DNA from: an uncultured Saprospiraceae bacterium
GTDB taxonomy: Bacteria > Bacteroidota > Bacteroidia > Chitinophagales > Saprospiraceae
Direction: 5' to 3'
Length of the DNA: 64,000 nt
Assembly (NCBI GenBank): GCA_937950315.1
Contig: CALFDU010000114.1
Coordinates: 1-64,000, forward strand
A program made the translations under genes and the position numbers. The notes beneath the pieces are model-generated. The model saw nothing but the letters and a program-made list of their open reading frames with translations. It searched no databases and was not told the origin of the DNA. Below, piece by piece: positions 25,931-32,344 of this stretch. How positions within the stretch are numbered: position 1 is the stretch's first letter; each line of letters starts with the position of its first letter.

Positions 25931-27064
25931 ATGGATTGCCAAAAACACTTATTCAGCCTTCACCCCGATGTACATTATCTCAACAACGCTTACAAAGGAC
26001 CATTATTGAAATCAGGCGAACAAGCAGCCATACATGCCTTACAAAGAGGCAGAAATCCATCTGATATGAACATTGGTCATTTCTTTGACCTTGTGGAAGA
26101 AGTGAGAACCCTTTACGGGAAATTGGTCAATTGCAATGCATCACAAGTAGCCATTGTCCCATCTACATCCTACGGATTTGCTTCAGCCCTTAACAACGTC
26201 AAACCTAAAACCAATGGCAAGGCCATTACAATAGAAGATGAATTTCCAAGTGATTTTTTTGCAATAAAAAAATGGTGCGATACCCATGACAACAAATTGG
26301 AAATCATAGGACCAGGTACAGATGATAGAAATAACATTGCAGATTCCTGGAATGAAAAAATCCTAAATAGCATCAATGAATCAACTTCAGTAGTCATCAT
26401 TTCATCTGTACATTGGGCCAATGGAATCAATTTTAACTTAAAATCCATCGGTTCTAAATGCAAAGAAATGGGTGCAATTTTCATAGTTGATGGAACCCAA
26501 TCAGTGGGCAGCCAGACCATGGACGTTCAAGCATTCAATATAAATGTTTTAGTAACCGCAGCTTATAAATGGTTATTAGGTCCTTATTCTCTTTGTTTGG
26601 TTTACCTAGATGATAATTTTAACAATGGAACACCACTTGAGGAATCATGGATGAATAGAACCAACGCCAGAGACTTTAGCAATTTAGCAAATTACGACCC
26701 CAATTATCAACCCAATGCAGCAAGGTACAACATGGGTGAAAGCAGTAATTTCATCTTGATGCCTATCGCCAAAGAAGGACTTCGTCAAATTCTAAATTGG
26801 AACACAGAGGAAATTCAATCATACGCAACCAATCTATCAAAACCCCTTTTTGATTTCTTAAACGCCAACAACAAATCTTTTTCAAATCATCTTTTCTCTT
26901 TACCCATGCCCAAAAACATCAATCGAGAAAAACTACATGAAAATTTGCGCAAGCGAAACATTATACTCTCTCAAAGAGGGGAATCACTCAGAGTATCTGT
27001 CAATATCTACAATGATGAAAATGATATAGCAAGTCTCATCGAGGCGATCAAACTTGCTATGTAA
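25931..27064 (+). CDS. Class V aminotransferase-fold PLP enzyme
   Basis: 377 residues, cytosolic. The PLP-binding lysine is Lys213 in AAYKWLLGPY. It is preceded by the cofactor-binding VDGTQSVGSQTMDV and by SSVHWANG. The overall length and N-terminus (YLNNAYKGPLLKSG) match the cysteine desulfurase/kynureninase-like branch. No desulfurase Cys loop is evident, so a true IscS/SufS role is unlikely; the substrate is unknown. It is co-transcribed with the TfoX-like gene and convergent with the gene ending at 27088. Confidence 0.85.
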   Translation: MDCQKHLFSLHPDVHYLNNAYKGPLLKSGEQAAIHALQRGRNPSDMNIGHFFDLVEEVRTLYGKLVNCNASQVAIVPSTSYGFASALNNVKPKTNGKAITIEDEFPSDFFAIKKWCDTHDNKLEIIGPGTDDRNNIADSWNEKILNSINESTSVVIISSVHWANGINFNLKSIGSKCKEMGAIFIVDGTQSVGSQTMDVQAFNINVLVTAAYKWLLGPYSLCLVYLDDNFNNGTPLEESWMNRTNARDFSNLANYDPNYQPNAARYNMGESSNFILMPIAKEGLRQILNWNTEEIQSYATNLSKPLFDFLNANNKSFSNHLFSLPMPKNINREKLHENLRKRNIILSQRGESLRVSVNIYNDENDIASLIEAIKLAM

Positions 27065-27087: not shown

Positions 27088-28704
27088 TTATCTTCGTCTA
27101 TCTCTACCCTTTGGTTCAGGCGTTAATCGATATAGAATACCAAGCCCCAAACCTAATTGGTGGATTTTTTGTTCGTATGGACCTTTATTCCCTTCCAAGT
27201 TTTGTAAAGGGAATCTATATCTAGGCTTTAAAATTACATCCATACGTTTCCCTACTTTTTTAGTTACACTCATGGTTGTCCACAAGCCCATCTGACCATC
27301 ACCAAAAAATACATTGTGAAACATACCTTCTCCTTCCTCTGAATTACTAAAAGTTAGATCTTCTTTCAGGTAAGCGCCATTAAGCTTACTATAAAAATTC
27401 ATATCGGCACCTACCATAACTTGAAATTTCATATTACGCCCTTCCGTGCCATATCCAATGCCAATTGGTAGATTAAACATCAATTGGCTATTGTACAACC
27501 TTTGATCAATTTCTGTAGTTACGGTAACAGGCACTTCTGCTCTTTCAGTCGATATGATTTCACCAGCAGCATTTTCTATTACAGCTACATCCACTGTTTG
27601 AATAGATGTTTCCTCAGTGATACTCTTTACTCTTATCCTTTCATTCAATGCAAAAAACTGAATTCCGGTGCTTACCAAAAGTCCGCTTTTGTGTTTCATC
27701 AACAATGAAATATCAGATCCATACGACTCAATAGGCTTTACTGCAGATTTCCTAAAATCTTGGTATGCAGCGTCATCAGTAAGTATCACAGTTGGAGCAT
27801 AAACACCACTTAAACTTGCCTCAACGAAAGGGACCCAAGCCTTAGATTTTGACTTCTTTCTTCGCTCTCTTTCACGATCTTTTTTCTCCTGTTCTCTATC
27901 AATTTTTCCTTTATCAACCTTGACTCCATCGTCTTCATTGCCTGCCACAATTGCAACTTCTTCACCTACTAAACTTTCCTTTTGCTCAACCAATTCATCA
28001 CCAACAAATTCCGACTTAGATACTTCCTCCCTTTCGCTTATTACCTCCTCGTTTAATTGTTCTTCAACAGCCATTTCCTCTTCAACAACAACTTCTTCTC
28101 GTACCTCTTCTGTTTTGTTCAAGATAGACAAAGCTCCTGACATAGGTAAAGCTTCTTCTTTGATTTCATTAAACTCTTGATCAGTTATTCCCTGTTCCAC
28201 TATACTTACTGGAATGTTAGATTTTCTTTTTTCATCAACCGTGGTATTTCTACCACTGACCTTTGACTTACTTTCCTGACTTACCTTCTGGTAATCTAAG
28301 GCAACTTTCGTTTCATTCATTCCTTCATCAACAGAAACATTGGTTGAATTTTGATCGACCTGATCTTCTTCATTCAGATTATGGTCTGTATTAGTTTGGG
28401 CATTTTGTTCTTCAATGATTGGCTGTTCATCTTGTAGATTCAAGTTCTGTTGCTTAGCTATTACTTCAGTCTTATTATTCACTGAAGAAGTATCATCTTT
28501 TTCATTGAAAGACATTTTATCCGACCATGTAAACAAGGAAGCGATCGCCCCAACACCCAAGAAGATCCAAAAAATAATTCTTCGCTTCTTTTTCTTTTTC
28601 TTTAAATGAGGTTCTATCTCTGCCCACAACTCATCACCATCGATAGGAGGTCTTTCATTTCCAAATTTATCGCTGATGTTTTTATTATATTCTGACTTCT
28701 TCAT
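27088..28704 (-). CDS. Trans-envelope protein: cytosolic tail, one membrane helix, charged linker and C-terminal beta-barrel-like domain (sigma-factor partner)
   Basis: I start it at the ATG at 28704 (538 residues, five bases after the sigma factor stop). An in-frame ATG at 28734 would overlap the sigma gene. The N-terminus is about 35 charged residues (DGDELWAEIEPHLKKKKKKR), then one hydrophobic helix (IIFWIFLGVGAIASLF). A roughly 230-residue acidic/lysine-rich low-complexity linker (EEVREEVVVEEEMAVEEQ) follows, and then about 250 residues of alternating beta-strand pattern resembling an outer-membrane barrel domain. Position behind an ECF sigma factor suggests the cytosolic tail acts as an anti-sigma-like binder. 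This is inference; no known anti-sigma domain is recognisable. Confidence 0.7.
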   Translation of the reverse strand: MKKSEYNKNISDKFGNERPPIDGDELWAEIEPHLKKKKKKRRIIFWIFLGVGAIASLFTWSDKMSFNEKDDTSSVNNKTEVIAKQQNLNLQDEQPIIEEQNAQTNTDHNLNEEDQVDQNSTNVSVDEGMNETKVALDYQKVSQESKSKVSGRNTTVDEKRKSNIPVSIVEQGITDQEFNEIKEEALPMSGALSILNKTEEVREEVVVEEEMAVEEQLNEEVISEREEVSKSEFVGDELVEQKESLVGEEVAIVAGNEDDGVKVDKGKIDREQEKKDRERERRKKSKSKAWVPFVEASLSGVYAPTVILTDDAAYQDFRKSAVKPIESYGSDISLLMKHKSGLLVSTGIQFFALNERIRVKSITEETSIQTVDVAVIENAAGEIISTERAEVPVTVTTEIDQRLYNSQLMFNLPIGIGYGTEGRNMKFQVMVGADMNFYSKLNGAYLKEDLTFSNSEEGEGMFHNVFFGDGQMGLWTTMSVTKKVGKRMDVILKPRYRFPLQNLEGNKGPYEQKIHQLGLGLGILYRLTPEPKGRDRRR

Positions 28705-28708
28705 CTTC

Positions 28709-29248
28709 TTAATTTGCTTTTTTATAATAATCAAACTCTTCCTCCAAAATACTTCTTAGGGCCTTCTTTGCCCTTGTCAAGAAGGTTCTAGAACTACTTT
28801 CCCCTACATTCAAAAATCCTGCAATCTCTTTATGAGAATATCCATCGATTACTGCTAGACTAAATACAATTCTATGATTCTCTGGCAACCGTTGCAGTAA
28901 ATTCATAATGTCTTCCACATGTAAATCCATCAGAGCACTTGGTAATGTATAAATGACTTCCATTTCTGTATTTAATTCTTCTACTATCTTTTGTTTTTTG
29001 GAAGATAGTGCTGTATTGATGGCTATCCTTTTGCACCAAGCACGAAACGGAATTTCTTCTGTTGCTTTACAGGTATCCATGTTATTAAAAATCTTAATCA
29101 AAGATTCTTGCAATAGATCCTTGGCTTGTTCAAGATTAAAATCGGCATAACGCTTACATATGGAATAGAGCATCGGTGAGATAAGATCCATCATCTCCCG
29201 CTGCGCCCTGCGATCCAACTGTTTACATTTTTTTATTAGTTTTTCCAC
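28709..29248 (-). CDS. ECF-type RNA polymerase sigma factor
   Basis: 179 residues. The sigma-70 region 2 core is visible (RRAQREMMDLISPMLYSICK, then AKDLLQESLIKIFNN and FRAWCKRIAINTAL). Region 4 has the helix-turn-helix (LPENHRIVFSLAVIDGYSHK, then EIAGFLNVGESSSRTFLTRA). It directs RNA polymerase to a specific promoter set. It starts 10 bases after the stop of the upstream lipoprotein and ends five bases before the trans-envelope gene, so the three appear to form one operon. Confidence 0.92.
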   Translation of the reverse strand: MEKLIKKCKQLDRRAQREMMDLISPMLYSICKRYADFNLEQAKDLLQESLIKIFNNMDTCKATEEIPFRAWCKRIAINTALSSKKQKIVEELNTEMEVIYTLPSALMDLHVEDIMNLLQRLPENHRIVFSLAVIDGYSHKEIAGFLNVGESSSRTFLTRAKKALRSILEEEFDYYKKAN

Positions 29249-29258
29249 GGCAGTTCCT

Positions 29259-30995
29259 CTAGTTGGTTCTCTTTAGTTTAAAACTGCCTTCAACATCAAC
29301 TTGCTGACCTCCCACATCAACTGCAGTACCGGTAAGACTTCCCTCAACAAACTCACCATCATCTACCAAAACATCTAATGTAAGATTCGGCGCTACTGAA
29401 TTCACAAATAACTCATTGGTGAAAATAGGATCTAAGAAACCAGACAACTCAATCGCAGAAGTATATGTTCCAACGCCACTGTATTCTTCTATATCCAATA
29501 AAAACTCATGCTCAAATGCCATCCCATGAACCACCCACCAATTGGTACCAGTATTGTCCTTTTCAATGAAATCAACAGGACTAGTCCAAAATTCCTGACC
29601 ATCTATACTAACATTAAAATACTCAAGCAAGTCTTCACAAATTACCTCCTGCCCCAAATCAACATCTCCAAATTCTGTAAAAACAAGAGAGTCACTTACA
29701 AGTTGTTCTGCACTTGAATATGCTTGAATACTCAACACTGGAAATTCAACACATTTAAGCCCTATATCAGCATTTACCAACCCATCTACCACCTCAAATA
29801 TTCTTGTGTTACTTGGATAACTTACCGAAATATATCCTGAATCTAATAATGCACTATTGCAATCTATGATTTGACCAGAGATATTCAATATGTATTCATT
29901 GACCGTAACGTCTAAATATACATCACCCAAATAATGATGATTGGAAAATGGTCCGACAGTCTCTCCAAAAATTTCATTTCCACATAAATCAATAATAGAA
30001 AAATACATCTCAGTTTCCGTAGGCACCGACCCACAGAAATATCCATCCAAATCTGTATATCCAAAATAGGTGTAATGAGTACTTAAATCTTCAACTTGAA
30101 CCTTGAGGTAACTCGAGAAAGTTGAATCGGCATTGAATACTGTTCCTGAAAGACAAATCGCCCTGAGAGGTCTGGCGATACAGATGTAACCAGGTTTTGA
30201 AATATTGCACTCATAATAAATACCCACTTTAGTACAATTGTCTATCGGAAACCATTGCTCTTCCTCCAAATCAAACAAATAAATCGTCAATTCATCAGGA
30301 GCATCATCCAAAAGTTCATCTGGAATTTTGAAATTGACTTTCATGGTTTCACCTTCAGCAATCAACAACTCTTCTTCTCCGTCACTGAACTCAGTCACCA
30401 TCATACCAAACGTCTCCAAAACCTCCTCATTGCCATCTTCATCAACGGTAGACAAAGAGCCAGGCATTTGATTTCCAAATTCATCGCTTGTCGGATCAAT
30501 ATATCTAGAAAATAATTCTGCCTCCCCTTCAGCTAAATCCCCATTCTCATCAACAAGCATCCCAGCTGGAACAACAATCTCTAAATCTTCCCCGACAGTA
30601 AAATTGTTGGCTTCATCCGTTTTAATCAAAGAAGCCTCTCCTTTTTCAACCATCGTGATTTCAACAAACGACCCAGCATCTGCTCGAAAATCTGATGTCG
30701 CTATTCCTAAAAAATAAGTGCTTTGCTCCGCGGTTATCAAAGCCTTTGACTTTTCTACAATTATGTTATCGAAACTAAAATTACCTTGACCATTGGTCGT
30801 TTTACTGTTATCTCCTACCGAAACAGGAACACCGGAAAGCCCATTCCCTTCCTCATCCAACACCCTTCCACTCAAAGAACTTTCAACAAATACTTTTGTT
30901 TCAGGTCTATCTACTGTTACCTCAAACACATCCAACTCTTCTCGACAAGAGCTGGCGCATACCAGGAACATCAATGCTAAGAGTCTTATTTTCAT
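29259..30995 (-). CDS. Lipoprotein with carboxypeptidase-regulatory-like domain
   Basis: I start it at the ATG at 30995 because a lipoprotein signal follows directly (MKIRLLALMFLVCASSC); an upstream in-frame start at 31031 would bury it. Residues 40-110 form a carboxypeptidase-regulatory-like beta-sandwich (SGRVLDEEGNGLSGVPVSVG, then TTNGQGNFSF). A central VPAGMLVDENGDLAEGEAEL region and further beta-rich domains follow to residue 578. It is probably anchored in the outer membrane. It is the first gene of the putative operon with the ECF sigma factor, which suggests a surface-sensing or sigma-regulated function. I do not recognise a specific family for the full protein. Confidence 0.75.
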   Translation of the reverse strand: MKIRLLALMFLVCASSCREELDVFEVTVDRPETKVFVESSLSGRVLDEEGNGLSGVPVSVGDNSKTTNGQGNFSFDNIIVEKSKALITAEQSTYFLGIATSDFRADAGSFVEITMVEKGEASLIKTDEANNFTVGEDLEIVVPAGMLVDENGDLAEGEAELFSRYIDPTSDEFGNQMPGSLSTVDEDGNEEVLETFGMMVTEFSDGEEELLIAEGETMKVNFKIPDELLDDAPDELTIYLFDLEEEQWFPIDNCTKVGIYYECNISKPGYICIARPLRAICLSGTVFNADSTFSSYLKVQVEDLSTHYTYFGYTDLDGYFCGSVPTETEMYFSIIDLCGNEIFGETVGPFSNHHYLGDVYLDVTVNEYILNISGQIIDCNSALLDSGYISVSYPSNTRIFEVVDGLVNADIGLKCVEFPVLSIQAYSSAEQLVSDSLVFTEFGDVDLGQEVICEDLLEYFNVSIDGQEFWTSPVDFIEKDNTGTNWWVVHGMAFEHEFLLDIEEYSGVGTYTSAIELSGFLDPIFTNELFVNSVAPNLTLDVLVDDGEFVEGSLTGTAVDVGGQQVDVEGSFKLKRTN

Positions 30996-31114
30996 GTTAA
31001 TCGTTTTGTTGTTTATACCCCTTAGACTCAATACTTACCAGAAACGCTACAGGCATATCCTAATATAATGTAGAATCTGCGTAATCCTATTATTATAGCC
31101 ACAATAGCACGCAT

Positions 31115-31222: not shown

Positions 31223-31747
31223 CTAGCTTGGGATCAGATATCCTATCTTAAAAACCATAATCCCTGTCTGTTCATAACTTGCACCAAGTATCAAACTATC
31301 TTTGATTTGCAAATAACTCCCAAGACTATATCCCAACTTAAAGTTATTCTCTATAAGCATTGATATTCCTCCAGAAGACCATCTTGCATAAATTTCTTCG
31401 GTAACGAGAGAGGCTCCAGGCAAAAAACTGAAATACCACCTTACTTTTTTATCTGATTGCAGCACATAAATTCTAGGACCAAACAAAAGACTTGTCACAT
31501 ATGTATTTCTAATTTCAGGCAAAGAAAAATAAGATACAGAAGCTTGTCCTTCCCAAGAAAATCTTTCTTTTTTGACCATCTCCAGATTGTAAGCTATATT
31601 AACTCCTACATTCGAAACATTTGGTCCCGTTGGATAACCAAAGCTTACTGCATGGTTGATTTTCACCAAATTCTCCTCTTGACTGAAACCATCATGTATG
31701 ACAGTCAAAAACAAACACACAGACACGATGAGTTTAATCAATTTCAT
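31223..31747 (-). CDS. Small outer-membrane beta-barrel-like protein (paralogue 1)
   Basis: 174 residues with a signal peptide ending VIHDGFSQ. The mature part alternates polar and hydrophobic residues as in a small barrel. It shares RFSWEGQASVSYF, VTSLLFGPRIYVL, RWYFSFLPG and LILGASYEQTG with its upstream neighbour (paralogue 2), so the two arose by tandem duplication. It is about 33 bases from that gene and shares its direction. No named family is recognised and the function is unknown. Confidence 0.7.
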   Translation of the reverse strand: MKLIKLIVSVCLFLTVIHDGFSQEENLVKINHAVSFGYPTGPNVSNVGVNIAYNLEMVKKERFSWEGQASVSYFSLPEIRNTYVTSLLFGPRIYVLQSDKKVRWYFSFLPGASLVTEEIYARWSSGGISMLIENNFKLGYSLGSYLQIKDSLILGASYEQTGIMVFKIGYLIPS

Positions 31748-31780: not shown

Positions 31781-32344
31781 TTACAATTTACTATTTGGAA
31801 TCTTATATCCCACCTTAAAAACCAAAGCCCCATACTGCTCATAAGAAGCACCAAAAATCAGTCGATCTCTAAATTGCAAATAGCTTCCAACATTATATCC
31901 AATCTTCAATGATGCCTCCCTTCTAAGCACTATTTGATCAGCTTCACTAAATCCATATTCTTGATCGTCGACAAAAGCAATTCCTGGCAAAAAACTAAAA
32001 TACCATCTTATATTTCTTTCAGGTTTCATAATGTAAACCCTAGGACCAAACAAAAGACTAGCGACAAATGTATTTCCTCCATCATGAGCAAAAATCCCAC
32101 TATCCTCATCGTAAGATGCATAATAAGCAGATGCTTGACCCTCCCATGAAAATCTATCTTTTTTGATGATCTCCATGTTGTATCCAAGATAAATACCAAG
32201 ATCTGGTGCATCAAAAATTGTAGCAGGATAACCTAAAAAAATAGTATGGGCAATATCCGAATTATCATTTTTCTGAGAAAAGCTTTCCGTAAGATTGAAA
32301 ATAGACAACAATGCCACAACGACTAGAAATTTTATGTATTCCAT
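31781..32344 (-). CDS. Small outer-membrane beta-barrel-like protein (paralogue 2)
   Basis: 187 residues with a signal peptide ending LTESFSQ. It is clearly homologous to paralogue 1 along the whole length (RFSWEGQASAYYA, VASLLFGPRVYIM, RWYFSFLPGIAF, LIFGASYEQYGALVFKVGY). It has an extra loop of about 12 residues after SAYYASYDEDSG. It precedes paralogue 1 in the direction of transcription. Function is unknown; an outer-membrane position is inferred from the signal peptide and strand pattern. Confidence 0.7.
   Translation of the reverse strand: MEYIKFLVVVALLSIFNLTESFSQKNDNSDIAHTIFLGYPATIFDAPDLGIYLGYNMEIIKKDRFSWEGQASAYYASYDEDSGIFAHDGGNTFVASLLFGPRVYIMKPERNIRWYFSFLPGIAFVDDQEYGFSEADQIVLRREASLKIGYNVGSYLQFRDRLIFGASYEQYGALVFKVGYKIPNSKL

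Follow-up and report, generated by a model that had tools for sequence, protein, structure and literature searches.

Organization of the Operon

The genes considered here lie on contig CALFDU010000114.1 (assembly GCA_937950315.1) of an uncultured Saprospiraceae bacterium of the phylum Bacteroidota, the first 64,000 nucleotides of which were analyzed and are referred to as the window. On its minus strand, a lipoprotein gene is followed by a gene for an extracytoplasmic function (ECF) sigma factor and by a gene for a 538-residue protein that appears to span the entire envelope. The last two very probably constitute a signaling pair of the type described in Bacteroides thetaiotaomicron, where dual membrane-spanning anti-sigma (Dma) proteins act with sigma partners named Das (PMC13088901), and the operon as a whole would be such a Dma/Das-type system to which a lipoprotein partner has been added. 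The three genes are as follows.

29259-30995, minus strand: lipoprotein, 578 amino acids (ATG at 30995, stop at 29259; lipobox cysteine Cys17, then REEL)
28709-29248, minus strand: ECF sigma factor, 179 amino acids, Das-like (GTG at 29248, stop at 28709; Pfam)
27088-28704, minus strand: Dma-like trans-envelope protein, 538 amino acids, putative anti-sigma factor (ATG at 28704, stop at 27088; open reading frame, homologues and structural model)

The genes form a tight operon, with 10 nucleotides between the lipoprotein and sigma factor genes and 4 between the sigma factor gene and the third gene, and the original prediction, made from the DNA letters alone, of three closely spaced minus-strand genes was thus confirmed by the open reading frame coordinates. 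Because the downstream gene (25931-27064) sits on the opposite strand, the operon ends at 27088; on the other side, 227 bases separate the start of the lipoprotein gene from the next upstream gene of the minus strand.

Predicted Architecture of the Trans-Envelope Protein

The third protein returned no Pfam match at E ≤ 1 and no NCBIfam match above cut-off, consistent with the earlier statement that no known anti-sigma domain is visible in it; models of FecR and of TonB receptors were likewise without matches above cut-off in either this protein or the lipoprotein (Pfam, NCBIfam). Its parts, numbered from the ATG start after removal of a 10-residue TTG extension, are predicted to be the following.

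28579-28704, minus strand: cytosolic tail, residues 1-42, with two short helices, W27 and a basic stretch before the membrane helix (alignment, AlphaFold2)
28507-28593, minus strand: inner-membrane helix, residues 38-66 (hydrophobicity, AlphaFold2)
27841-28506, minus strand: periplasmic linker, residues 67-288, disordered over 67-263 and with a helix at 266-285 (AlphaFold2)
27124-27840, minus strand: C-terminal OmpA-like beta-barrel, residues 289-527 (AlphaFold2, fold searches)

A single hydrophobic stretch was found, at residues 43-61. The AlphaFold2 model, built on a 33-row alignment, has a mean predicted local distance difference test score (pLDDT) of 66.8, a value lowered by residues 67-263, which score below 50 and are predicted to be disordered. 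Helices were modeled at residues 5-14, 23-35, 38-66 (the membrane helix) and 266-285, and a barrel at approximately residues 289-527, where 19 of the 24 ten-residue blocks between 291 and 530 have pLDDT values of 84-97 and the other five (301-310, 441-470, and 501-510) values of 58-81. With this barrel as query, Foldseek ranked OmpA first and NspA fourth (E-values of 7e-8 and 1e-6, respectively), and a second structure aligner gave Z-scores of 16-18 against NspA, OmpA, and OprF. A soluble C-terminal domain, the outcome that had been named as refuting the scheme, is rejected on these predictions, and the C-terminal part is predicted to be an outer-membrane barrel. The proposed series of tail, single helix, linker and barrel is therefore upheld by the model and the fold searches, except that the linker has approximately 220 residues rather than the 230 first given, and the predicted architecture supports the idea that one chain joins the outer membrane to a sigma factor.

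Apart from the start, W27 is the sole near-invariant residue of the tail, being present in 46 of 48 aligned homologues (the window protein included; the truncated homologues L062, L081, and L082 left out). The profile made from this alignment matches the window protein at 8.6e-97, the protein itself being one of its 48 rows. When used to search the PDB sequences, it found nothing meaningful (best E-value 0.027; CnrY absent from the best five matches), and a scan of the genome contigs with the single sequence found no relatives.

Linkage to the Sigma Factor

The window sigma factor matches two Pfam models of sigma-70 regions, PF08281 (2.4e-13) and PF04542 (2.5e-9), and among proteins of solved structure SigW is the nearest to it in sequence (3.8e-12). 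Its association with the third protein was followed in two directions. In a sample of 60 genomes, consisting of the bacterium's own and 59 relatives, homologues of the third protein were present in 26, its own included, and amounted to 58 rows representing 51 distinct genes and 7 second pieces. Directly upstream of 49 of the 51 genes, and on the same strand, lies an ECF sigma factor gene; of the two exceptions, one is at a contig edge and the other (L041) has two genes in between. Since 49 of 51 homologues directly follow a sigma gene, the arrangement exceeds chance. At L041 (contig C91 of genome G027) the order is sigma factor, Dma-like protein (550 amino acids), lipoprotein (592), and a second Dma-like protein (464), and one sigma factor may there be common to two trans-envelope proteins.

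In the reverse direction, an alignment of seven sigma factors was scanned against named genome records, and the best 80 of at least 575 confirmed relatives, nearly all from records titled as Bacteroidota, were inspected, including five unparsed loci recovered by using the matched reading frame. At 75 of the 80 loci the downstream protein carries the N-terminal segment of the third protein (E < 0.01), at 49 the barrel (E < 1e-3), and at 47 both. Neither was found at three, two of which have no open frame in reach and the third a borderline value of 0.029. The segment occurs at 28 loci without a detected barrel, of which three are cut by the contig end and a few, with 409-512 residues, could hide a diverged one. 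These 28 loci suggest that the N-terminal segment is the sigma-linked part and the barrel the more exchangeable part, which is the pattern to be expected if the segment is an anti-sigma segment. Within the bacterium's own genome, Das-like sigma genes at L086 and L098 stand before genes for short proteins of 135 and 177 amino acids that have the tail and one membrane helix, apparently barrel-less versions of the anti-sigma protein. At L126 and L188, a sigma-barrel fusion like Dma3 was considered and rejected, the frames of the barrel proteins simply extending upstream over the sigma gene. Two records titled Treponema (L116) and Polynucleobacter (L138) hold Bacteroidota-type sigma loci, and the sigma factor of L116 is identical to that of L118, a Bacteroidia record; these two contigs are probably mis-binned.

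These counts also bear on whether the third protein inhibits the sigma factor at all. It could instead tether inner and outer membrane to each other in a structural role, its co-regulation with the sigma gene being incidental, and the lack of a known anti-sigma domain in Pfam or NCBIfam would agree with such a role. A tether, however, would have no need of an N-terminal segment that follows Das-like sigma factors even where no barrel is detected, and the loss of Dma1 or Dma2 in B. thetaiotaomicron acts through the cognate sigma factor (PMC13088901), leaving a purely structural role highly improbable.

Beyond the immediate relatives, at least 108 of 247 genomes sampled across the phylum match the family profile at 1e-4, with a maximum of six candidates scored per genome. 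The bacterium's own genome has 14 matches, seven of them near full-length (three of these being rows of the profile itself) and an eighth, close to the start of a contig, comprising just the barrel half. Hence, the expectation that similar sigma-adjacent proteins recur in the phylum was borne out by the homologues, the sigma relatives and the phylum sample alike, and homologues unlinked to sigma genes, which would have spoken against it, are at most the 2 exceptions among 51. In a fast tree of the sigma factors, 70 of whose 151 inner branches are weak, a branch with a support of 87 separates the window sigma factor, together with barrel-adjacent ones of Tannerella and Parabacteroides, from 15 others encoded in its own genome.

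The Lipoprotein and Its Linkage to the Barrel Genes

With a profile built from 27 lipoproteins of the homologue sites, 32 of the 51 sites were found to have the lipoprotein two genes ahead (position -2). Among the 80 named sigma loci it was found at only five, all titled Saprospiraceae. Starting from the lipoprotein instead, 30 of 34 matches in 11 genomes (the bacterium's own and 10 others) are followed at a distance of less than 4 kb by a Dma-like gene of the same strand, and for the remaining four the contig ends before the downstream side is visible; this count used 57 of 82 listed rows, the omission of weaker rows and of a second piece being able only to lower the linked number. Mapped onto the sigma tree, the occurrence of the lipoprotein requires 4 changes among 129 labeled rows, or 8 when 26 other own-genome sigma factors with unlabeled neighbors are scored as being without it. 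The five sigma rows nearest that of the window all have the lipoprotein, and no strongly supported branch holds it. A second lipoprotein family, of approximately 300-350 amino acids, lies downstream of the barrel gene in 9 of the 19 sites without a lipoprotein at -2 (eight at +1 and one at +5), L033, L044, L055 and six others being the sites concerned, and its profile matches residues 117-254 of the window lipoprotein (129-266 in the longer frame) with an independent E-value of 1.5e-5. The original prediction had left the role of the lipoprotein unaddressed; from these patterns, it looks like a dedicated third component of the system.

This linkage is difficult to accommodate in one alternative, according to which the barrel would bind no ligand and would report on whether outer-membrane assembly works: failed insertion or envelope damage would lead to cutting of the tether and, through intramembrane proteolysis, to release of the sigma factor, with the lipoprotein a product of the regulon. 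The linker is long and predicted to be disordered, and hence accessible to proteases, and a comparable sigma gene of Phocaeicola vulgatus is induced 33-fold by a toxin, exposure to which resembles envelope stress, while disruption of the anti-sigma gene beside it turns the regulon on (PMC9308784). Left unexplained are the presence of the lipoprotein beside the barrels wherever the downstream side is visible in 11 genomes, and that of a second lipoprotein sharing the ZU5-like stretch in 9 of the 19 sites lacking the first; as an account of the whole operon, assembly sensing is considered rather unlikely.

The lipobox reads LVCASSC-REELD, and three domains were delineated in the protein.

30642-30887, minus strand: domain 1, residues 37-118, transthyretin-like/CarboxypepD_reg (PF13620; carboxypeptidase D, Z-score 11.7; SusC N-terminal extension, Z-score 11.1)
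30165-30638, minus strand: domain 2, residues 120-277, ZU5/GAIN-like, without HF[ST] (AlphaFold2, fold search)
29907-30164, minus strand: domain 3, residues 278-363, second transthyretin-like domain (AlphaFold2, fold search)

The AlphaFold2 model of the lipoprotein has a mean pLDDT of 69 and is fair to good over residues 41-360, approximately. The CarboxypepD_reg domain was recognized by Pfam (PF13620, 3e-8), and a SusC/RagA match (E-value 0.087) is limited to the N-terminal fold. Domain 2 aligned with the ZU5 domain of ankyrin (Z-score 9.1, root-mean-square deviation 3.7, 129 residues aligned) and with the GAIN domain of BAI3 (Z-score 8.4, deviation 3.2, 127 residues), both middling scores, and in two homologues the ZU5-like region gave a weak, below-cut-off Pfam match to the FAM171 N-terminal model.

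Parts of the model also resemble Gram-positive pilins and surface adhesins, as would suit a second alternative, in which the third protein is an anti-sigma factor and the lipoprotein merely a co-transcribed target, e.g., a surface adhesin made while the sigma factor is active. A precedent exists in B. thetaiotaomicron, where the genes neighboring dma2 are strongly up-regulated in a dma2 mutant and yet can be deleted without effect on vesicle production (PMC13088901). The first place in the operon, the strict linkage and the co-divergence with the barrel described below fit a partner better, but they are compatible with a target, a role that is regarded as possible but doubtful. Both this account and that of assembly sensing can hold together with a Dma-type core.

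The tripeptide HF[ST] is present in 22 of the 43 lipoproteins collected (several being fragments), in 21 cases near the end of the ZU5-like domain and in the context V-x-HF[ST]-x-W (e.g., L037, L049, and L182), and in one case elsewhere. In PIDD, self-cleavage at HF/S takes place directly behind the ZU5 domains (PMC3210808), and the motif of these 21 homologues is like that site; among known proteins, those with the ZU5-type domains of PIDD and of NLRP1 and CARD8 offer the closest comparison. Unlike PIDD, the window lipoprotein lacks the tripeptide and has SKPGY at the equivalent place, and the likeness between the two is one of predicted fold; the motif in the homologues is a lead to self-cleavage and not a result. 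With respect to location, a charged motif follows the cysteine in 36 of 40 operon lipoproteins, and among lipoproteins encoded elsewhere in these loci 17 of 31 have one, as scored by a loose rule of our own after setting aside the three of 43 without a recognizable lipobox. The reported signal for surface export comprises two acidic residues after a positive or polar one, and the C-R-E-E of the window fits it, although shifted by one place toward the cysteine from the published optimum (PMC5080379). As an export signal the motif is only suggestive, and the lipoprotein probably resides at the outer membrane, where it may be exposed on the surface of the cell.

Taken furthest, these features would make the ZU5/GAIN-like lipoprotein a surface sensor, self-cleaved in many relatives into a non-covalent pair that shifts upon ligand binding or pulling and so gates the barrel, the tether and the sigma factor, the window copy being a derived, non-cleaving form. 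Such a sensor is improbable on present grounds, but if true it would be a bacterial outer-membrane counterpart of the GAIN signaling of adhesion receptors, wired straight to transcription.

Proposed Mechanism

Gene order, architecture, barrel fold and the linkages of sigma factor and lipoprotein are all supported by computation, and the following Dma-type scheme is proposed on that basis. The two-helix cytosolic tail would hold the ECF sigma factor inactive, wrapping it as CnrY does (by analogy only); the single helix would anchor the chain in the inner membrane, the disordered tether would cross the periplasm, and the OmpA-like barrel would sit in the outer membrane, where barrel and lipoprotein together would form the outer end of the system. 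The lipoprotein would be a dedicated partner, whose likeliest role is that of the barrel's input; that it is an input rather than a product is held tentatively, at somewhat short of an even chance. A change at the surface (a ligand, damage, or lost integrity of the barrel) would then free the sigma factor, whether the chain is pulled into another conformation or cut, and transcription of the operon by its own sigma factor would follow. We infer the binding of the tail to the sigma factor, the contact between barrel and lipoprotein, the signal and the release step.

Several observations weigh against this scheme. The distances among sigma factors and among barrels are correlated (r of 0.83 for 47 pairs, with none of 2000 permutations as high), but r falls to 0.39 within genomes (35 pairs). 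Likewise, lipoprotein distances correlate with those of the barrel (0.73) and of the sigma factor (0.66; 25 pairs, again with none of 2000 permutations as high), and the lipoprotein-barrel value falls to 0.49 within genomes (12 pairs). Co-divergence of the tail (residues 1-42) with the sigma factor is weak, with r at 0.355 overall and -0.09 for same-genome pairs (35 pairs). Because the within-genome values drop, part of these correlations is attributed to species relatedness. Furthermore, the lipoprotein model rests on six sequences, with the last 200 residues poor, and the profile match to Bacteroidales proteins described in the following section is confined to the barrel region.

The step of autoregulation depends on one further feature.

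31023-31051, minus strand: TGTAGC-N18-GTCTA, a putative ECF promoter ahead of the lipoprotein gene (motif comparison)

The heptamer TGCAGCG occurs upstream of 12 of 29 lipoprotein operons and of none of 126 other genes in the same loci (L058 and L071, whose lipoproteins are cut short, and L065, with a misplaced start, being left out). As the commonest 7-mer in shuffled upstream sets averaged 9 and reached 13, the count of 12 has meaning only when set against the other genes. Near orthologues from a single genus account for 4 of the 12 operons. The two-box form TGYARC-N17-19-RTCTW was found in 24 of the 75 named loci without the lipoprotein, always with a spacing of 18, compared with 27 of 3000 random windows; among the 29 lipoprotein operons it occurs in one, the window's own (random windows, 4 of 1160), and the pattern had been derived from these same sequences. 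Genome-wide its frequency is at chance, as the pattern and its reversed control each gave 8 matches, and among those of the pattern the window's site alone has an open frame of more than 102 codons starting within 400 nucleotides downstream. A regulon search of the bacterium's own genome with TGYAGCGWWT-N6-16-TWWAT fared no better: the reversed control had 5 matches and the pattern itself 3, one of which is the related operon of contig C6, and neither pattern located a regulon target elsewhere in that genome. The motif comparisons suggest that the sigma factor autoregulates its operon through the site at 31023-31051.

Upstream of the operon on the minus strand lie two adjacent genes (31223-31747 and 31781-32344) encoding small proteins that resemble one another, start in the manner of a signal peptide, and match PagL weakly, below the cut-off. 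They are preceded by genes for a 227-amino-acid protein and for a lipoprotein-like protein with LVIVD repeats, and this region with its LVIVD-repeat neighbor is perhaps a separate outer-membrane gene cluster.

Comparison with Known Systems

It had been proposed that the mechanism would be new or poorly described. The same layout has, however, been published both for the Dma proteins (PMC13088901) and for an anti-sigma factor of P. vulgatus (PMC9308784). Dma proteins, which occur solely in Bacteroidota, consist of an N-terminal sigma-binding domain, a membrane helix, a long disordered tether and a C-terminal barrel, and are encoded adjacent to ECF21 sigma genes; loss of Dma1 relieves the repression of das1, and the dma2 phenotype requires das2 (PMC13088901). 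The window protein is predicted to follow this plan of Dma1 and Dma2 part for part, and its gene likewise adjoins that of an ECF sigma factor. Its single transmembrane helix, disordered tether and C-terminal barrel are all predicted, and its counterpart of the sigma-binding domain would be the conserved two-helix segment with W27, which tracks the sigma genes. The adjacent sigma factor is assigned to the ECF class by Pfam and placed by the tree with those of Tannerella and Parabacteroides. The barrel profile (the 48-row family, the window protein included) matches 12 Bacteroidales proteins with a probability of 99.6 and an E-value of 1.6e-23. The bacterium's own genome encodes seven near full-length Dma-like proteins and one cut short, compared with three named Dma proteins in B. 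thetaiotaomicron.

In P. vulgatus, the sigma gene of the pair M0N98_03760/03761 is followed by that of a large anti-sigma factor, described as 'unusual', which is predicted to span the periplasm and to end in an outer-membrane barrel (PMC9308784). This pair and the Bacteroides fragilis pair cited with it have the same sigma/barrel layout and probably serve in an envelope-stress response; in contrast to the window operon, no lipoprotein partner is mentioned in the available part of that report. Inactivation of an ECF sigma factor by a two-helix cytoplasmic domain has a precedent in CnrY (PMC4598750), to which the tail of the window protein is likened by analogy; CnrY acts with a separate sensor, CnrX. 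TonB signaling of the FecA/FecR/FecI type also conveys an outer-membrane signal to an ECF sigma factor, with receptor and anti-sigma factor as separate proteins where the window has one chain.

The lipoprotein sets the window operon apart. Whereas the neighbors of dma2 are BT_1555 to BT_1557 (PMC13088901), the window operon opens with a CarboxypepD_reg/ZU5-like lipoprotein, the first domain of which has a fold in common with the N-terminal extension of SusC; at two Parabacteroides loci, NigD-like lipoproteins follow. A lipoprotein partner of Dma-type systems was not found in the literature searched, the coverage of which did not extend to the PNAS 2024 paper on Dma1 and the B. fragilis EcfO paper, and that search also found no literature joining anti-sigma factors with Saprospiraceae. 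The chain type is thus already known, and the lipoprotein as its partner looks new. The two-box pattern TGYARC-N18-RTCTW may make the regulons of these sigma factors searchable, although in the bacterium's own genome it has so far been too unspecific, and the triplets of sigma factor, barrel and lipoprotein provide a natural matched set for locating contacts by co-variation. In Dma systems a single chain, whose input is still missing, connects the outer membrane with a transcription factor (PMC13088901), and because the lipoprotein lies beside the barrels wherever the downstream side is visible, in 11 genomes, its family is a concrete candidate for that input.

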